A DNA stretch of 64,000 nt from Armatimonadota bacterium. Lineage in GTDB: Bacteria > Armatimonadota > Fimbriimonadia > Fimbriimonadales > Fimbriimonadaceae. The notes beneath the pieces were generated by a model that saw only the letters and a program-made list of their open reading frames with translations, did no database searches and had not been told where the DNA came from. A program made the translations under genes and the position numbers. Shown here piece by piece: positions 43,967 through 50,855 of the stretch (the first letter of the stretch is position 1; each line of letters begins with the position of its first letter). The stretch covers positions 896,644 to 960,643 of the forward strand of contig JAFDWQ010000001.1 of NCBI GenBank assembly GCA_018268395.1. The letters run 5' to 3'.

Positions 43967-44760
43967 TGTCGTTCACCGTTTTCGGGTCGTTGATAGAAGA
44001 GCGGGATCCGAGATTCGAATCCGATTTCGGAGGCGCTGAATATGCGCTCCGTTCCTCCGACGAACAGCACCCCCCCTGGGCGCAGCGCGTCGAAAAACTT
44101 GCGGTAGAGCATGGACTTCGCGTCTTCTGTGAAGTAGATGACCACGTTCCGGCAAAGGATGAGGTCGAAGTCCTTGTCGAAGGTGTCCGCCAACAGGTTC
44201 TGCTTGCGGAACTCGAGGTGTTTCCGGGCGGCCGGCAGCGACTTCCATCCGCCGCCTTCGGCCACCAGGTACGCGTCGCGGTACTCCTTGGGAACGCTCT
44301 TGACGTCGCTCTCGCTGAACTCGCCACGCTTGGCCTGGGCGAGGGCGGCGTCGTCGATGTCCGTTCCGAGGATCCGGTGCGGGCCTGGGAAGTTGCGGTC
44401 AAGGACCATGCCGAGGGTCGTCGCTTCCGCGCCGTAGCTACAACCTGCCGACCAGCAGCGAAGTCCTTTGCCCGGCCTCAGAAGGCCGGGGATGACTTTC
44501 GTCCGAAGTTCGTCCCACTTTTCCGGATTCCGGAAGAGCTCGGAGACGTTGATCGCCAACTTGTCCATGAACCAGGACAGGTTCTCCTTCGAGCCGACGA
44601 TCCACTTTGCTAGATCGGCCAGGTCGGCGTGGCCCTTCGACTCCGCCATCATCCCGATGCGCCGTTGGAGCTGGTTCGCCTTGTACTGGCTCAAGTCCAG
44701 TCCGGACGCCTTCAACACGGCCCGGTAAAGGTCGTCCCATTCGCGTTCGCTATGAAGCAC
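43948..44760 (-). CDS. cheR: chemotaxis protein methyltransferase CheR
   Basis: 270-residue SAM-dependent methyltransferase adding methyl groups to glutamates of chemoreceptors. The N-terminal helical domain (SGLDLSQYKANQLQRRIGMM) precedes the SAM core (CWSAGCSYGAEATTLGMVL, ILGTDIDDAALAQAKRG, FDLILCRNVVIYFTEDAK, LFVGGTERIF). It has no C-terminal receptor-docking pentapeptide partner or TPR. It overlaps cheB by 11 bp and cheY by 19 bp. Confidence 0.94.
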   Translation of the reverse strand: MLHSEREWDDLYRAVLKASGLDLSQYKANQLQRRIGMMAESKGHADLADLAKWIVGSKENLSWFMDKLAINVSELFRNPEKWDELRTKVIPGLLRPGKGLRCWSAGCSYGAEATTLGMVLDRNFPGPHRILGTDIDDAALAQAKRGEFSESDVKSVPKEYRDAYLVAEGGGWKSLPAARKHLEFRKQNLLADTFDKDFDLILCRNVVIYFTEDAKSMLYRKFFDALRPGGVLFVGGTERIFSASEIGFESRIPLFYQRPENGERQWRNAS

Positions 44761-45784
44761 GGCGCGCCCTCCCGTTCAAACTGGCGACGATGGCCTGCGC
44801 CATCTCGTCGATCGGAAACTCCGCATCGACGGCCCCGATCTCCTTGGCCGCTTTCGGCATCCCGTAGACGACGCAACTCGATTCGCATTCGCCGAGGACG
44901 GTCCCACCTGCTTCGCGAAGGGCCAGGGCGCCGGCTGCCCCGTCCCGGCCCATGCCCGTCAGCACGACCCCGATCGCCTGATCCTTGTACAGCTTGGCGC
45001 CGCTCTTGAAGAGGACGTCGGCGGCCGGTCGGACCCCGTGCTGGGGCGCTTCGTCGGTCAGCTTGACGCGTCCCTCGGACGTGACCGACATGTGTCGGCC
45101 GCCGGGAGCGACGAGCGCGATGCCCGCCTTGACCGTTTCCCCGTCGGACGCTTCGTGCACCGGCATCGCCCCGATCTGTTCCAGTCGTCTCGCGAAGCTG
45201 GCGGTGAATCCGGCGGGCATGTGCTGAACGATCAGGACGGGGGCGGGAAAACCCTTCGGCATTCCGGCGAACAGAGTGGCCAGAGCCTTCGGACCGCCTG
45301 TCGAACTGGCGATGAGGACGGTCTTGTCGGTCTGCCGAACGCTTGTCGGACGCGCGGTGTGCGACGGCCCGCACCGGCCGCCGACCCGGGCGCTCCGGAC
45401 GCCGCGGAGCTTGTCCAGGAGTTCGTCCTTAGAGCGGACGAACTTGAATCCGGCACCGCCGTCAGGCTTCGTCACGAAGTCCACAGCGCCCAGTTCGAGC
45501 GCCTTGATCGTCTGCTCGGCTCCTTGCGTGGTGACGCTGCTCACCATGAGGACCGGCACGGGGCCGACCGCCATGATCTTCGCCAGCGCCGTCAACCCGT
45601 CCATGACCGGCATCTCGACGTCCAAAGTGACGATGTCCGGTTTCAGTTCTTGGACCATCCGGACGCCTTCCTCCCCGTTGGTCGCCACGCCGGCGACTTC
45701 GAAGTCCGAAGCGTCCTTCAGCCAGTCCGAGAGCATGCGCCGGATGAACGGCGAATCGTCGATGATGAGGACCCTTGTTTTCAT
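44750..45784 (-). CDS. cheB: chemotaxis methylesterase CheB
   Basis: 344-residue response regulator-methylesterase reversing CheR methylation. The receiver has Asp9-Asp10 and phospho-acceptor Asp55 (VTLDVEMPVMDG). The C-terminal esterase has the catalytic Ser in IASSTGGPKAL, His in VQHMPAGFTASFARRL and Asp in LTGMGRDGAAG. ATG at 45784 overlaps the HDOD gene stop (ATGA). All catalytic residues are present, so it should be active. Confidence 0.95.
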   Translation of the reverse strand: MKTRVLIIDDSPFIRRMLSDWLKDASDFEVAGVATNGEEGVRMVQELKPDIVTLDVEMPVMDGLTALAKIMAVGPVPVLMVSSVTTQGAEQTIKALELGAVDFVTKPDGGAGFKFVRSKDELLDKLRGVRSARVGGRCGPSHTARPTSVRQTDKTVLIASSTGGPKALATLFAGMPKGFPAPVLIVQHMPAGFTASFARRLEQIGAMPVHEASDGETVKAGIALVAPGGRHMSVTSEGRVKLTDEAPQHGVRPAADVLFKSGAKLYKDQAIGVVLTGMGRDGAAGALALREAGGTVLGECESSCVVYGMPKAAKEIGAVDAEFPIDEMAQAIVASLNGRARRAS

Positions 45785-46647
45785 GCTGCCGCCAACTCCT
45801 CGAACATCCGCTCGTAATCCTCGTACCCGGTCACGAACGCGTCCGTGATGGCATCGAGATCGTCTTCCTGGATCCCGAGCCGTCGGAAACTCTCCTCACA
45901 CACCTTGTAGTGGAGGCCGTCTCCACCGAGACCGAACCCCATCGACATCGTGAGGTAGATGCCGAGGTGGACGCAGTCGACGATCGGCGACGGCGGATCG
46001 CAACTGTCCGGGTCGTGGTGCCACCGGACGGCTTGAACGATCTCGTCCGGCAGGTTCCAGTTCAAAGCGAGGTGCTCGCCCACTTGACAGTGGTCGTAAC
46101 CGAGGATCTTGCGCTCCGCCTCGTCGAAGGGCACCTGCGCCTTCTCGGCATAGTCCACGACCAGCGCCGTCCGGTTTTCCAGCCACACGCTGAGCGCGAC
46201 CTTTCCAATGTCGTGGAGCAGGCCGGCCGTGAACGCCTGATCCTCGTTGCAGAGCCCGCTCTTCTTGGCCAGGAGCTGGGCACCGAGGGCGGTCCCGAAC
46301 GAATGCGACCACAGTTCGCGCGGGCCGAGACAGTAACCGTCCAGCTTCCGCGACATCCACGGGTACGTGGCCGCGACCATGCAAAGGTTGCGGACGCACC
46401 GCATCCCGAGCACCACGACCGACTCTTGGAGGTTGGTCACCTTGCGCGTCAATCCGTAATAGGCGCTGTTGGCCAATCGGAGGACGCGGGCGCTGAGCGC
46501 CTGGTCCTGCGCCAGGATCTTCGCGATGCCTGAGGCGTTGCTCGTGCTCGACTCCGCCTCACGCATGACTTTCAGCGCGGCCGCGGGCAAGCTCGGCAAG
46601 TCCGGTGTCCGCTTGACAATGTCTTCGATCGTGATGTTCTCGGCCAT
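45781..46647 (-). CDS. HDOD-domain signalling protein
   Basis: 288 residues dominated by an HDOD domain, the HD-related non-enzymatic output domain: LPSLPAAALKVMREAE, KILAQDQALSARVLRLANSAYYG, then LWSHSFGTALGAQLLAKKSG and FTAGLLHDIGKVAL. The GLLHDIGK keeps the His-Asp pair. GGAGGT lies 8 bases before ATG at 46647, inside the cheD stop (TGATG). HDOD proteins regulate chemotaxis, biofilm and c-di-GMP signalling in other bacteria; its place between cheD and cheB suggests it reads or tunes this pathway. Confidence 0.88.
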   Translation of the reverse strand: MAENITIEDIVKRTPDLPSLPAAALKVMREAESSTSNASGIAKILAQDQALSARVLRLANSAYYGLTRKVTNLQESVVVLGMRCVRNLCMVAATYPWMSRKLDGYCLGPRELWSHSFGTALGAQLLAKKSGLCNEDQAFTAGLLHDIGKVALSVWLENRTALVVDYAEKAQVPFDEAERKILGYDHCQVGEHLALNWNLPDEIVQAVRWHHDPDSCDPPSPIVDCVHLGIYLTMSMGFGLGGDGLHYKVCEESFRRLGIQEDDLDAITDAFVTGYEDYERMFEELAAA

Positions 46648-47174
46648 CAGGCCACCTCCCGTAAGCTTCGTTCGCGCAGATTGCACACGAGCTTCTCACC
46701 CGTGTTGACGGTGCGGACCTTCACGTTCCCGGTCGAGAGTTCGACGGTCACCGTGCGGCCGTTCGCCCCGCCGACGTCCGTAAAGATCGGCCGGATCCCA
46801 AGGGCCCTGACGGCGGCTTCCACGGCCTCGATGTTCCGCGCCCCCACGTCGAGCCTTCCCGCCCCTTGATCGCCAAACTTGAAGACTTGCGCCCCGCCCG
46901 CATAGGCGACGACGAGCCGCGATTTGGGCGCGCCCGCGGATTCGAGCAACCGGAGCATCTCGGGCAAACCGGTGTCTGCGAACTTCCCAGGCTTGTCCAC
47001 AGGTTTGTCCTTGAACGACGCGGGCAGCATCAAGTGGATCATCCCTGCGACCTCGCTGACCGGATCGAACGCGACGAGCCCGATGCAGCTTCCCAACCCG
47101 AGACAGCTCAGGACTCCTGGGGACTTGACGACGTGGATCTCCGCCATGCCGACGACGACGGTCGAGGACGCCAC
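46647..47174 (-). CDS. cheD: chemoreceptor glutamine deamidase CheD
   Basis: 175-residue deamidase that converts receptor glutamines to glutamates and binds CheC. The catalytic Cys30 is in CLGLGSCIGLV and His47 in AGMIHLMLP; the third residue, a Thr, is expected in the loop that follows. The C-terminal half has the IEAVEAAVRALGI and IFTDVGGANGRTV blocks. It begins 2 bases after cheC and overlaps the HDOD start by one base. Confidence 0.94.
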   Translation of the reverse strand: MASSTVVVGMAEIHVVKSPGVLSCLGLGSCIGLVAFDPVSEVAGMIHLMLPASFKDKPVDKPGKFADTGLPEMLRLLESAGAPKSRLVVAYAGGAQVFKFGDQGAGRLDVGARNIEAVEAAVRALGIRPIFTDVGGANGRTVTVELSTGNVKVRTVNTGEKLVCNLRERSLREVA

Positions 47175-47176
47175 GT

Positions 47177-47809
47177 TCAGGCCGCCTCCTCGACGCCGAG
47201 GCGCCCGAAGATCGCTTGGAGTCCGCCGACCGACGGGATGCAGAGGAAGAAGCCTTGGATGTCCCTGGAGCCGTCGACGAAGATCTCCGTCTCGATCGCT
47301 AGGGCGACGGACTCGGACATTTCAGCTTCGGCGACCAAGGTGCTGACGACGGTCGAACCCAAGTCGGCCGAGACAAGAGGCGGCGTCGCGTGCATCGCCA
47401 GGCCCGTCATGTCCGAAATCGCGTTCAGAAAACTGGAATTGATGATGTTGCCGACTTCGAGCGCGGCCGAAGCGCAGAGCTCGTCGATCTCCGCGGGGCT
47501 CTCCGGCGCCGTACCGATCAGCGTCCGGATCAGTTCCTGGGCGCTCGCCCACGGGAACAGGAAGGCAAGATGGCCCTCCACGTCACCGTCGAAGGGCATG
47601 TAGATGCCAAGGACGACGCCGTCTTCACCTCCAAGGACCAGGCCGGCCAGTCCGACGTCGACGGTGTCGACATGAGGCACGGCCATGTTGAAACTGCGGC
47701 CGGTCATGTCGGACAAGGCCGTCGTGGCCCGTCCGAGACCGATGTTCGCCAGTTCTTTGACGACCGACGAGGCCATCGGACCGAGGTTTCCAACACTGAA
47801 GACACCCAT
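47177..47809 (-). CDS. cheC: CheY-phosphate phosphatase CheC
   Basis: 210-residue CheC with both phosphatase signatures: VVKELANIGLGRATTALS and LCASAALEVGNIINSSFLN (each with E..N). The beta segments are DTVDVGLAGLVLGGEDGVVLGIYMPF and FLCIPSVGGLQAIF. CheC is activated by CheD, encoded just downstream. ATG at 47809 is chosen because the N-terminal helix begins at residue 8. It is the first gene of the operon; the promoter is not identifiable in the 326-base gap upstream. Confidence 0.92.
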   Translation of the reverse strand: MGVFSVGNLGPMASSVVKELANIGLGRATTALSDMTGRSFNMAVPHVDTVDVGLAGLVLGGEDGVVLGIYMPFDGDVEGHLAFLFPWASAQELIRTLIGTAPESPAEIDELCASAALEVGNIINSSFLNAISDMTGLAMHATPPLVSADLGSTVVSTLVAEAEMSESVALAIETEIFVDGSRDIQGFFLCIPSVGGLQAIFGRLGVEEAA

Positions 47810-48135
47810 AACTACCGCCCGAGCCTGAAGCCCCGCCGACGGACGGCGGTCCCTCCAGGACACCCATGAGTGCATTCCATAAGCCTACGATCTGGGGTGC
47901 AAGTAGATTCACCGGTCAAATATGTGGAGGAAATGTGGAGAAAAAGGGGCGTTCCTCTTTACATCTTTTCAACACTTGTGGTTCAATACCTGGTAGAAGT
48001 ACAAGGTGCGACAGCCGCCGGTTCGGGGGTAGGACGTACCTCAAAAAGCTTCAAAGCGTTCGGGGTGTGACGTTGCTCCTCTCCAGTCATGCCCCGTTTT
48101 TTGTTCTCCGGACGCCTACGGTAACATCCCTGTCG
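47810..48135. other. AT-richer intergenic region between divergent operons
   Basis: It holds the 5' regions of the chemosensory operon (minus) and the BCCP-like operon (plus). TAACAT at 48122-48127 fits the plus side. Around 47920-47990 the sequence is AT-rich for this genome and has two tandem TGTGGAG sites, one (47934-47942) matching the DnaA box TTATCCACA at 8 of 9 on the minus strand. No convincing gene is seen in it. Confidence 0.5.
48122..48135 (+). promoter_or_regulatory. -10 hexamer that fixes the start of the BCCP-like gene
   Basis: TAACAT at 48122-48127, 8 bases, then ATG at 48136. A longer in-frame start at 47866 would run through the regulatory region. Confidence 0.5.
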
Positions 48136-48543
48136 ATGGCGGGTTTGGACCGAGACACCTTGACCGACGTCCTTCGGGTCGCCCGAGACCACGGATACCG
48201 GTACGTCCGCATCAAATCCGGACGACACTCCTTCGAGGCGGACCTTCCTGAGCCGGACACGCAGGAGCCGGATGAAGCGCCGAACGTCGTACTCGAGACT
48301 CCGTCGTCCGTCGAAAGCGAACGGATGTTGACGGCTCCGGTGGTCGGGTATTACCGTCAGCCTGACCCGCCGCTGACGGTGGGCGCAAAGATCAAGACAG
48401 GTCAAGTCGTCGGCGAAGTCCTGGCTCTAGGGATCGCGAACGACGTCGTGTCCGACGTCGAGGGCGAGGTCACCGAAGTCCTTGTCGAAGACGGCGCGGC
48501 CCTAGAGTACGGTCAAGCGCTCGCGAAGGTGAAGTCACCATGA
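48136..48543 (+). CDS. BCCP-like protein lacking the biotinylated lysine
   Basis: 135 residues matching the biotin carboxyl carrier subunit of acetyl-CoA carboxylase. The domain runs from LTAPVVGYYRQPD (residues 60-72) to the C-terminal VLVEDGAALEYGQALAKV. In AccB proteins the hairpin reads EAMKM, the Lys being biotinylated; here the gapless equivalent is LALGI, with Gly99 (codon at 48430-48432) in place of Lys. The protein cannot carry biotin. It might be a regulatory or structural mimic, as plant BADC proteins are. It overlaps the pilin-like gene (ATGA); accC follows. Confidence 0.82.
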   Translation: MAGLDRDTLTDVLRVARDHGYRYVRIKSGRHSFEADLPEPDTQEPDEAPNVVLETPSSVESERMLTAPVVGYYRQPDPPLTVGAKIKTGQVVGEVLALGIANDVVSDVEGEVTEVLVEDGAALEYGQALAKVKSP

Positions 48544-48914
48544 AGACCAAAGGCCAGTCGCTCGTCGGCATCATCGTCGGCATCGGCATCGTCATTTTGC
48601 TGGCCGTCGCGTTCACGGTCGGATCGGGCGCGTTCGGAGGAAAAGTCGAAGCCCGTCCCGACGGTAAGGGGAACACCGTCGTCGGGAGGTCGATGTACCG
48701 GGCCAAGGACGAAGCTTGCCGGTCCAACCTGTCGCAGCTCCGCCAGTCCATTCAGATCAATACCGACCCCGTGGAGAACGTCCCGCCCGCACAGCTATCG
48801 GACACGAAGCTCGGCGCCGATTTCATGAAGTGCCCTGTCGGCGGCGAAGGCTACGTGTACGATCCGAAGACGGGTACCGTGTCCTGCCCGCACCCGGGGC
48901 ACGAAAAGTACTGA
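48540..48914 (+). CDS. small pilin-like membrane protein
   Basis: 124 residues with one N-terminal helix (QSLVGIIVGIGIVILLAVAF) preceded by MKTKG, resembling a short prepilin leader ending in Gly, though the position-5 Glu of pilins is Gly. The soluble part includes CRSNLSQLRQSIQI and ends CPVGGEGYVYDPKTGTVSCP, a C-terminal layout common in minor pseudopilins. The gene overlaps the BCCP-like stop by 4 bases and the accC start by 1 base, so it is firmly inside the fatty-acid operon. The role is unknown. Confidence 0.7.
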   Translation: MKTKGQSLVGIIVGIGIVILLAVAFTVGSGAFGGKVEARPDGKGNTVVGRSMYRAKDEACRSNLSQLRQSIQINTDPVENVPPAQLSDTKLGADFMKCPVGGEGYVYDPKTGTVSCPHPGHEKY

Positions 48915-50278
48915 TGTTCCAACGCGTCCTCATCGCCAACCGCGGCGAAATCGCCTGCCGCGTGATCCGAGCCTGTCGACAGCTCGGTATCGAGTCCGTC
49001 GCCGTCTACTCCAGGGCCGACAAGGACAGCCGTCACGTGCAGATGGCCGACCGCTCCTTCTGCATCGGTGAGGCGACGAACCAGGACAGTTACCTGAACG
49101 TCGGCAACGTCCTGACCGCCGTCGAGATCACGGGCGCCCAGGCCGTCCACCCTGGATTCGGATATTTCAGCGAGAACGCACGGTTCGCCGACGAGGTCGG
49201 CCGTATGGGCGTCAAGTTCATCGGCCCGTCGGTCTCGGCGATCGAAGCCATGGGCGACAAGGCGAAGGCCAAACACGCGGCCGTGGCGTCGGACTGCCCG
49301 GTCGTGCCCGGCAGCGAGGGCCCGGTCCCGACCGAGACCGAGGCCCTGAAGATCGCTGAGGGCATCGGTTACCCCGTCCTTCTGAAGGCCGTCGCAGGCG
49401 GCGGTGGCCGAGGGATCCGGCGCGTCGACAATCCCGACGAACTCCAGTCCCTCTGGAAGCTCTGTCAGTCCGAAGCCCAGGCCAGCTTCGGCAACGACGA
49501 AATGCTCGTGGAGAAGTTCGTCGTCGATCCGCGGCACGTCGAGATCCAGATCCTCGGCGACGAGCACGGCGACGTGGTCTACCTGGGCGAGCGCGAGTGC
49601 TCCGTCCAAAACCTCCGTCATCAGAAGATCGTCGAGGAAGCTCCGTGCGCCGTCTTGGACGAGGCCACGCGCCGGCAAATGGGCGAGGCGGCCGTCCGGG
49701 TCGCGAAGTCGGTCGGATACTCCAACGCGGGGACGGTCGAGTTCCTGCTCGACCCGCAAGGACGGTTCTACTTCTTGGAGATGAACACTCGGATCCAGGT
49801 CGAACACCCGGTGACAGAGATCGTGACGGGCCTCGACCTCGTGCATCTCCAGCTCAAGATCGCGGCCGGCGAACGGCTCCCCTTCGGTCAAGACGACGTC
49901 CGGCTCAAAGGCCACGCCATCGAAGCCCGGATCACGGCGCAAGACCCGGACAATGCGTTCGCCCCGAGCACGGGCAAGATCACGAAGTGGAACCCGCCGG
50001 GCTTCGGCAATGTCCGGCTGGACACCCACGTCTACGCCGGATTTACGGTCTCTCCGTTCTACGATCCGATGATCGCGAAGCTGATCGTCTGGGGTCAAGA
50101 CCGTGACGAAGCCGTCCGCAACCTCCGGTCGGCCCTTCGCGAGTTCGACGTCGAAGGGATCAAGACCAACATCCCGTTCCTGCAACGGCTCTGCAACCAC
50201 CCCGACTATCGGTCCGGGCAGGTCGACACCGGGTTCGTCCCGAGGTTCCTGTCGGAAAGCACGGTCGGCGATGCGTGA
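48914..50278 (+). CDS. accC: acetyl-CoA carboxylase biotin carboxylase subunit
   Basis: 454-residue ATP-grasp enzyme that carboxylates biotin on BCCP in the first step of fatty acid synthesis. Landmarks are VLIANRGEIACRVIRACR, VHPGFGYFSEN, PVLLKAVAGGGGRGIRRV (ATP loop), GERECSVQNLRHQKIVEEAP, FYFLEMNTRIQVEHPVTE and GHAIEARI. Length is typical. A true biotinylated AccB must be encoded elsewhere, because the only BCCP-like gene here lacks the Lys. It starts in the stop of the pilin-like gene (TGATG) and overlaps nusB by 8 bp. Confidence 0.96.
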   Translation: MFQRVLIANRGEIACRVIRACRQLGIESVAVYSRADKDSRHVQMADRSFCIGEATNQDSYLNVGNVLTAVEITGAQAVHPGFGYFSENARFADEVGRMGVKFIGPSVSAIEAMGDKAKAKHAAVASDCPVVPGSEGPVPTETEALKIAEGIGYPVLLKAVAGGGGRGIRRVDNPDELQSLWKLCQSEAQASFGNDEMLVEKFVVDPRHVEIQILGDEHGDVVYLGERECSVQNLRHQKIVEEAPCAVLDEATRRQMGEAAVRVAKSVGYSNAGTVEFLLDPQGRFYFLEMNTRIQVEHPVTEIVTGLDLVHLQLKIAAGERLPFGQDDVRLKGHAIEARITAQDPDNAFAPSTGKITKWNPPGFGNVRLDTHVYAGFTVSPFYDPMIAKLIVWGQDRDEAVRNLRSALREFDVEGIKTNIPFLQRLCNHPDYRSGQVDTGFVPRFLSESTVGDA

Positions 50279-50855
50279 GGCCAAGCGCCCGAACGCGTCG
50301 CCTGCGGCCGCTCGCGACGCCGCCTTTCGAGCGGTCTACGCCATGAGGGTCGGAAACGCGCCGATCGAGGACGCCCTCTCCGAAGAAACGCTCGGCGAGA
50401 CGTTCGCACCGGAACTACGGGCCTACGTCGGCCGGCTCGTCTCAGCCGCCCAAGTCGGGGGCGACTCCGAGGGCCGTCTGGTCCCTCACCTCGCCGGACA
50501 GTGGGAGATCGACCGCCTAGCCTTGACCGACCGGATCCTTCTCGCGATGGCGAGCCACGAGCTTTGGAGCGAACCCCAGATCCCTCCGAAAGTCACGATC
50601 AGTGAATATGTCAAGTTAGCAGACTTATACGGAACGGCTGACAGCCGACGATTCTTGAACGGCGTTCTCGGATCGTTGGTGCTCGCCAGCCCGAAAGCAC
50701 AGTGGACGCCTCCCGCCGAGATGGACCCCGTGCCTGTAGCGGATCGAACGGAGACCGAAGCGGGGACTCCCGAGGTGCCCGAGCCTGAAGAGGAGAATCG
50801 GGAAGGGTCGGAAGAGCGGAGCACATCCCGCTGGATCCTGAAGTCCGACGGCTAG
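50271..50855 (+). CDS. nusB: transcription antitermination factor NusB, with acidic tail
   Basis: 194-residue RNA-binding protein used in rRNA antitermination. The NusB helical domain spans residues about 10-145 (AARDAAFRAVYAMRVGN, WEIDRLALTDRILLAMASHEL, PKVTISEYVKLADLYGTADSRRFLNGVLGSL). An acidic Glu/Pro-rich tail of about 40 residues, not usual for NusB, ends SRWILKSDG. ATG at 50271 is inside the accC 3' end. The stop codon TAG is the first half of the hexamer proposed for rarA. Confidence 0.9.
   Translation: MREAKRPNASPAAARDAAFRAVYAMRVGNAPIEDALSEETLGETFAPELRAYVGRLVSAAQVGGDSEGRLVPHLAGQWEIDRLALTDRILLAMASHELWSEPQIPPKVTISEYVKLADLYGTADSRRFLNGVLGSLVLASPKAQWTPPAEMDPVPVADRTETEAGTPEVPEPEEENREGSEERSTSRWILKSDG

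Follow-up and report, generated by a model that had tools for sequence, protein, structure and literature searches.

Analysis of a 64,000-nucleotide stretch of Armatimonadota DNA (the window) and of related genomes revealed, as read from the sequences, that the accB-like gene at the head of the accC operon has lost the codon for the biotinylated lysine, that its product keeps the BCCP fold and is under purifying selection, and that a second, Lys-bearing AccB is encoded in the same genome. The product, here called AccB1, has probably become a non-catalytic part of acetyl-CoA carboxylase (ACC), the enzyme starting fat synthesis, as a non-biotinylatable AccB paralogue with a structural or regulatory place in the heteromeric complex. 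For the phylum as a whole we incline, by a little, to an ACC that works with two BCCP types: one carries biotin, and the other, present in many lineages and encoded alongside accC, is a pseudo-carrier lacking it. The pseudo-carrier would have arisen independently several times and would be a convergent bacterial counterpart of plant BADC.

The accB1-like gene and its neighbours

The accB1-like gene extends from 48136 to 48543 on the forward strand and encodes, from an ATG start, a protein of 135 amino acids. The protein matched Biotin_lipoyl of Pfam (E=6e-8) and the BCCP family TIGR00531 of NCBIfam (E=7e-15); its 55.8 bits lie below the family cut-off of 115.2, as do the 94.7 of the Lys-bearing AccB2 of the same genome. 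A profile of relatives covered almost all of E. coli AccB (4hr7), starting at residue 20 and including the N-terminal part, and set Leu-Gly of AccB1 opposite Met-Lys, with the glycine in the biotinyl-Lys column. An earlier note on this DNA had read a glycine, Gly99, in place of the biotinylated lysine, and both the translated codon, GGG (48430..48432, forward strand), and the 4hr7 alignment agree with it. The E-x-M-K motif is absent and LALG stands in its place; only M1, G71 and Gly99 were invariant columns in a 20-row AccB1 alignment.

The AlphaFold2 model of AccB1 (pLDDT 86.8) showed an N-terminal helix (residues 6-18) and a beta-hairpin (23-36), followed by a loose linker and an intact barrel, in which the hairpin between strands 91-97 and 100-105 has Gly99 at its tip. 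The helix and first hairpin (48151..48243, forward strand) correspond in the model and in the 4hr7 alignment to the AccB-type region and are putatively AccC-binding, while the biotinyl-type beta-barrel domain comprises residues 62-133 (48319..48534, forward strand) according to Pfam, AlphaFold2 and Foldseek. Foldseek matched the model to the BCCPs of Pyrococcus, E. coli and Arabidopsis (BCCP1). The domain flanking the glycine had been described as intact, which holds for the barrel fold but not for the BCCP thumb: the spacing from Gly71 to Gly83 is 11 residues rather than 16, and a shortened segment of residues 72-82 (48349..48381, forward strand) occupies the place of the thumb of AccB2 and E. 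coli AccB.

The accB1-like gene is the first of a tightly packed operon on the forward strand in which it is followed by a gene for a 124-aa pseudopilin-like membrane protein (48540..48914, ATGA overlap with accB1), accC for biotin carboxylase (48914..50278, TGATG overlap; NF006367, 657 bits, above the cut-off) and nusB (50271..50855, identified by family matches; 8-base overlap with accC). The earlier placing of the BCCP homologue before accC was thus right as to the shared operon but overlooked the intervening pseudopilin-like gene. No sigma-70-type promoter turned up in a simple scan upstream of accB1, which carries little weight in this phylum. The first 30 same-family loci read all had the trio of accB1, pseudopilin-like gene and accC, as did most other loci of the phylum. 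In much of family f2 the AccB1 gene does not adjoin accC.

Almost everywhere in Armatimonadota the pseudopilin-like gene separates accB1 from accC, whether or not the lineage has the AccB1 lysine (for example at loci L116, L147, L203 and L226). No Pfam family matched its 124-aa product, which has a class III signal-like N-terminus and a C-terminal C-P...Y-x-Y-D-P-x-x-G...C-P-H-P-G-H motif. At eight f2 loci with a Gly-type AccB1 (L060, L065, L066, L068, L069, L071, L072 and L078) both accC and the pseudopilin-like gene were absent from the flanking DNA read; the f2 loci without linked accC keep the motif VLGIPNEV, or VLGIANEV at L078. Upstream of accB1 in the window and divergent from it are chemotaxis-type genes (44750-47875, reverse strand), CheC-like by family match and CheB-, HDOD- and CheD-like by reading of the translations.

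BCCP lineages in Armatimonadota and the biotinyl-Lys site

The survey was limited to Armatimonadota, for which genomes are mostly drafts and sampling of the phylum is uneven; 207 distinct carrier-like proteins were read, of which 204 of AccB type were used and three others left out. Matches to AccB1 were present in 59 of the 61 genomes searched, and a search with an alignment of close relatives gave seven Armatimonadota loci, several close relatives being labelled Fimbriimonadaceae. AccB2 proteins are standalone, carry the EAMK motif and a thumb (16 residues between two anchor glycines, as in E. coli AccB), formed one clade (support 94) and had the lysine in 67 of 67 cases. AccB1 proteins are mostly linked to accC and mostly have 11 residues between the anchor glycines. 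Residues other than lysine (Gly, Arg, Asp, Thr, Asn, His or Ser) occupy the AccB1 site in 102 genomes spread over 21 families, against Lys in 35. All 44 genomes from which AccB2 was read alongside a non-Lys AccB1 had the lysine in AccB2. Gly occupies the site in 68 genomes of Fimbriimonadales, the order of the window, and Thr in one, which confirms the glycine in relatives. A sequencing error or a one-off mutation is ruled out, since all 30 same-family loci first read have Gly.

The remainder of the E-x-M-K motif has also decayed in the non-Lys AccB1 proteins, E being kept in 36/102 and M in 16/102. Lys-bearing AccB1 proteins mostly retain the motif and so may still be biotinylated. Most of these also lack the thumb, and the sequences therefore suggest that loss of the thumb preceded that of the lysine. 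An ordinary Lys-bearing accB-accC pair was found on one short contig (L058, G054:C238), unlike the type of its own genome, and possibly represents draft contamination.

The phylogenetic tree of the linked AccC was taken to stand in for the history of AccB1. On it the Lys/non-Lys state changed 8 times (119 rows), or 10 times in a tree of 81 rows with E. coli, counts by parsimony in which losses of the lysine are indistinguishable from regains. Seven changes were forced by branches with support of at least 95, and a single origin of the non-Lys state, as one clade, was rejected (p-AU 9e-58). The AccB tree alone forced only 2 changes, because the protein is short. To our knowledge the biotinyl-Lys is universal in working BCCPs, so repeated loss is the natural reading. 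In the 119-row tree Gly is nearly fixed in Fimbriimonadales, with 58 of 59 rows and one Thr.

The lowest-dS pairs of non-Lys AccB1 gave dN/dS of about 0.06-0.26, the same range as Lys-bearing AccB1, which indicates purifying selection, and stop codons were absent from within AccB1 matches. A pseudogene is ruled out on both grounds, and the earlier impression that the gene is not decaying was therefore correct.

Acetyl-CoA carboxylase genes and comparison with known systems

The genome of the window (3.72 Mb, 99.8% complete) encodes a standalone AccB with EAMK, AccB2 (P0002), at 34.5 kb of contig C5. The true BCCP that the earlier note expected elsewhere was thus located, and the case of a genome with no AccB other than AccB1 is ruled out. 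Two biotin carboxylases are encoded, one of accC type and one of PCC/MCC type; the AccD and AccA genes are adjacent and the PCC/MCC-type carboxyltransferase is separate, and an MCC-like biotin domain and one biotin/lipoate ligase are also present. With a Lys-bearing AccB2, AccC, AccA, AccD and a ligase, a full heteromeric ACC can be made without biotin on AccB1.

We propose that the N-terminal helix and hairpin of AccB1 would bind AccC, and possibly AccB2 too, so that AccB1 would take some of the BCCP positions in the subcomplex with biotin carboxylase while carrying no biotin itself, and carboxyl transfer would fall to the separately encoded AccB2. By analogy, AccB1 seated on AccC may shape the complex in which AccB2 works and thereby set its assembly or activity. 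The E. coli complex has four AccB per AccC dimer (PMC3896788), which makes mixed AccB1/AccB2 complexes possible, and in Chloroflexus the dimers of biotin carboxylase are joined by a hairpin of BCCP, with a gain in activity (PMC11077971). On the other side, if the thumb went ahead of the lysine, AccB1 could by then have taken up a different function.

Plant BADC is the best available analogy for AccB1. This relative of BCCP, in which the biotinylation motif is missing, binds BC and BCCP; both inhibition and assembly as a 'glue' have been ascribed to it, and it has been called unique to the plant plastid enzyme (PMC11926652). Like BADC1-3, AccB1 is a BCCP homologue without the biotinylation lysine beside a true BCCP, and it coexists with a Lys-bearing BCCP, AccC, AccA and AccD of a heteromeric ACC; unlike BADC, it is bacterial, is encoded in an operon with accC, has its thumb deleted and has lost the lysine several times to different residues. 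The likeness is drawn from described features. Bacterial AccB (TIGR00531; E. coli 4hr7) shares with AccB1 the fold, the N-terminal helix and hairpin, the linker and the gene order before accC, whereas AccB1 lacks the biotinyl-Lys, E-x-M-K and the thumb and scores below the family cut-off. The fused BC-BCCP of Chloroflexus aurantiacus (BC1) is similar in that a BCCP-type hairpin organises the biotin carboxylase (PMC11077971); unlike AccB1, that BCCP is fused to BC and biotinylated on Lys553. Some bacterial acyl-CoA carboxylases have non-catalytic 'glue' subunits that promote assembly (cited in PMC11926652), non-catalytic as proposed for AccB1 but not described there as BCCP homologues. The literature searched contained no account of a bacterial AccB that is linked to accC and lacks the lysine, which is weak evidence as subscription papers were not included.

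The earlier note had suggested a BADC-like regulator that restrains ACC. This interpretation was partly supported, restraint being by analogy only one of two possible directions for an effect of AccB1, and it missed the repeated loss across the phylum with different residues, the missing thumb and the pseudopilin-like gene. Whether a pseudo-carrier assembles or restrains ACC is a debated point in plants, and the repeated losses provide a ready-made set of variants (Lys, Arg, Gly, Asp, His) on which the two can be tested. They also give a warning, since the gene annotated accB before accC is often not the biotin carrier in Armatimonadota.

Alternative functions of AccB1

As a sub-case of the subunit reading, AccB1 may chiefly be a competitive inhibitor that displaces biotinylated AccB2 from AccC and lowers flux. 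Plant BADC has been reported to inhibit by competing with BCCP for BC (PMC7712654; PMC11926652), and the gene order makes co-expression of AccB1 with AccC likely. However, little control would be gained from an obligate inhibitor if one operon supplied it and its target at a constant ratio, and BADC also acts as assembly glue (PMC11926652), so that we regard a chiefly inhibitory role as possible but rather unlikely. We lean to assembly over pure inhibition because AccB1 has lasted throughout the phylum and is in most cases produced jointly with AccC.

A dedicated autoregulator, with the N-terminal domain acting on the own operon and the barrel merely carried along, appears improbable. The N-terminal domain of E. 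coli AccB mediates repression of accBC (PMC3896788), and the AlphaFold2 model indicates that this fold is retained in AccB1; however, the barrel is better conserved than the N-terminal domain (0.51 against 0.38) and the AccB1 gene stands away from accC in family f2. The lower conservation of the N-terminal domain and the separation from accC in f2 speak also against AccB1 as an ACC subunit.

It is highly doubtful that AccB1 is a superfluous copy on which selection has relaxed, surviving for the time being only through translational coupling to the downstream genes. The ATGA and TGATG start-stop overlaps would suit such coupling, and the residue at the site is unstable beyond Fimbriimonadales, with close families differing in G, R or K and family f33 containing both G and R. 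Against this stand the low dN/dS, the uniform Gly of Fimbriimonadales but for one Thr, the survival of unlinked AccB1 in f2 and the lack of internal stops in the copies found. That AccB1 is still the working carrier, biotinylated on another lysine, is barely credible in spite of the kept BCCP fold, given that biotin ligases modify the lysine at the hairpin tip, that the whole E-x-M-K motif is lost and that a Lys-bearing AccB2 and a biotin ligase occur in the same genome.

The role of AccB1 as an ACC subunit can also be viewed against two reduced 1.5-Mb genomes of the family of the window (G031 and G230 of genus g29; loci L255 and L256), which have a biotin carboxylase of PCC/MCC type only. In both, accC is absent and searches for the two AccB types gave no match or marginal matches only, and this joint absence, counted as one event, fits an ACC job for AccB1. 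An AccA-like match is present in these reduced genomes.
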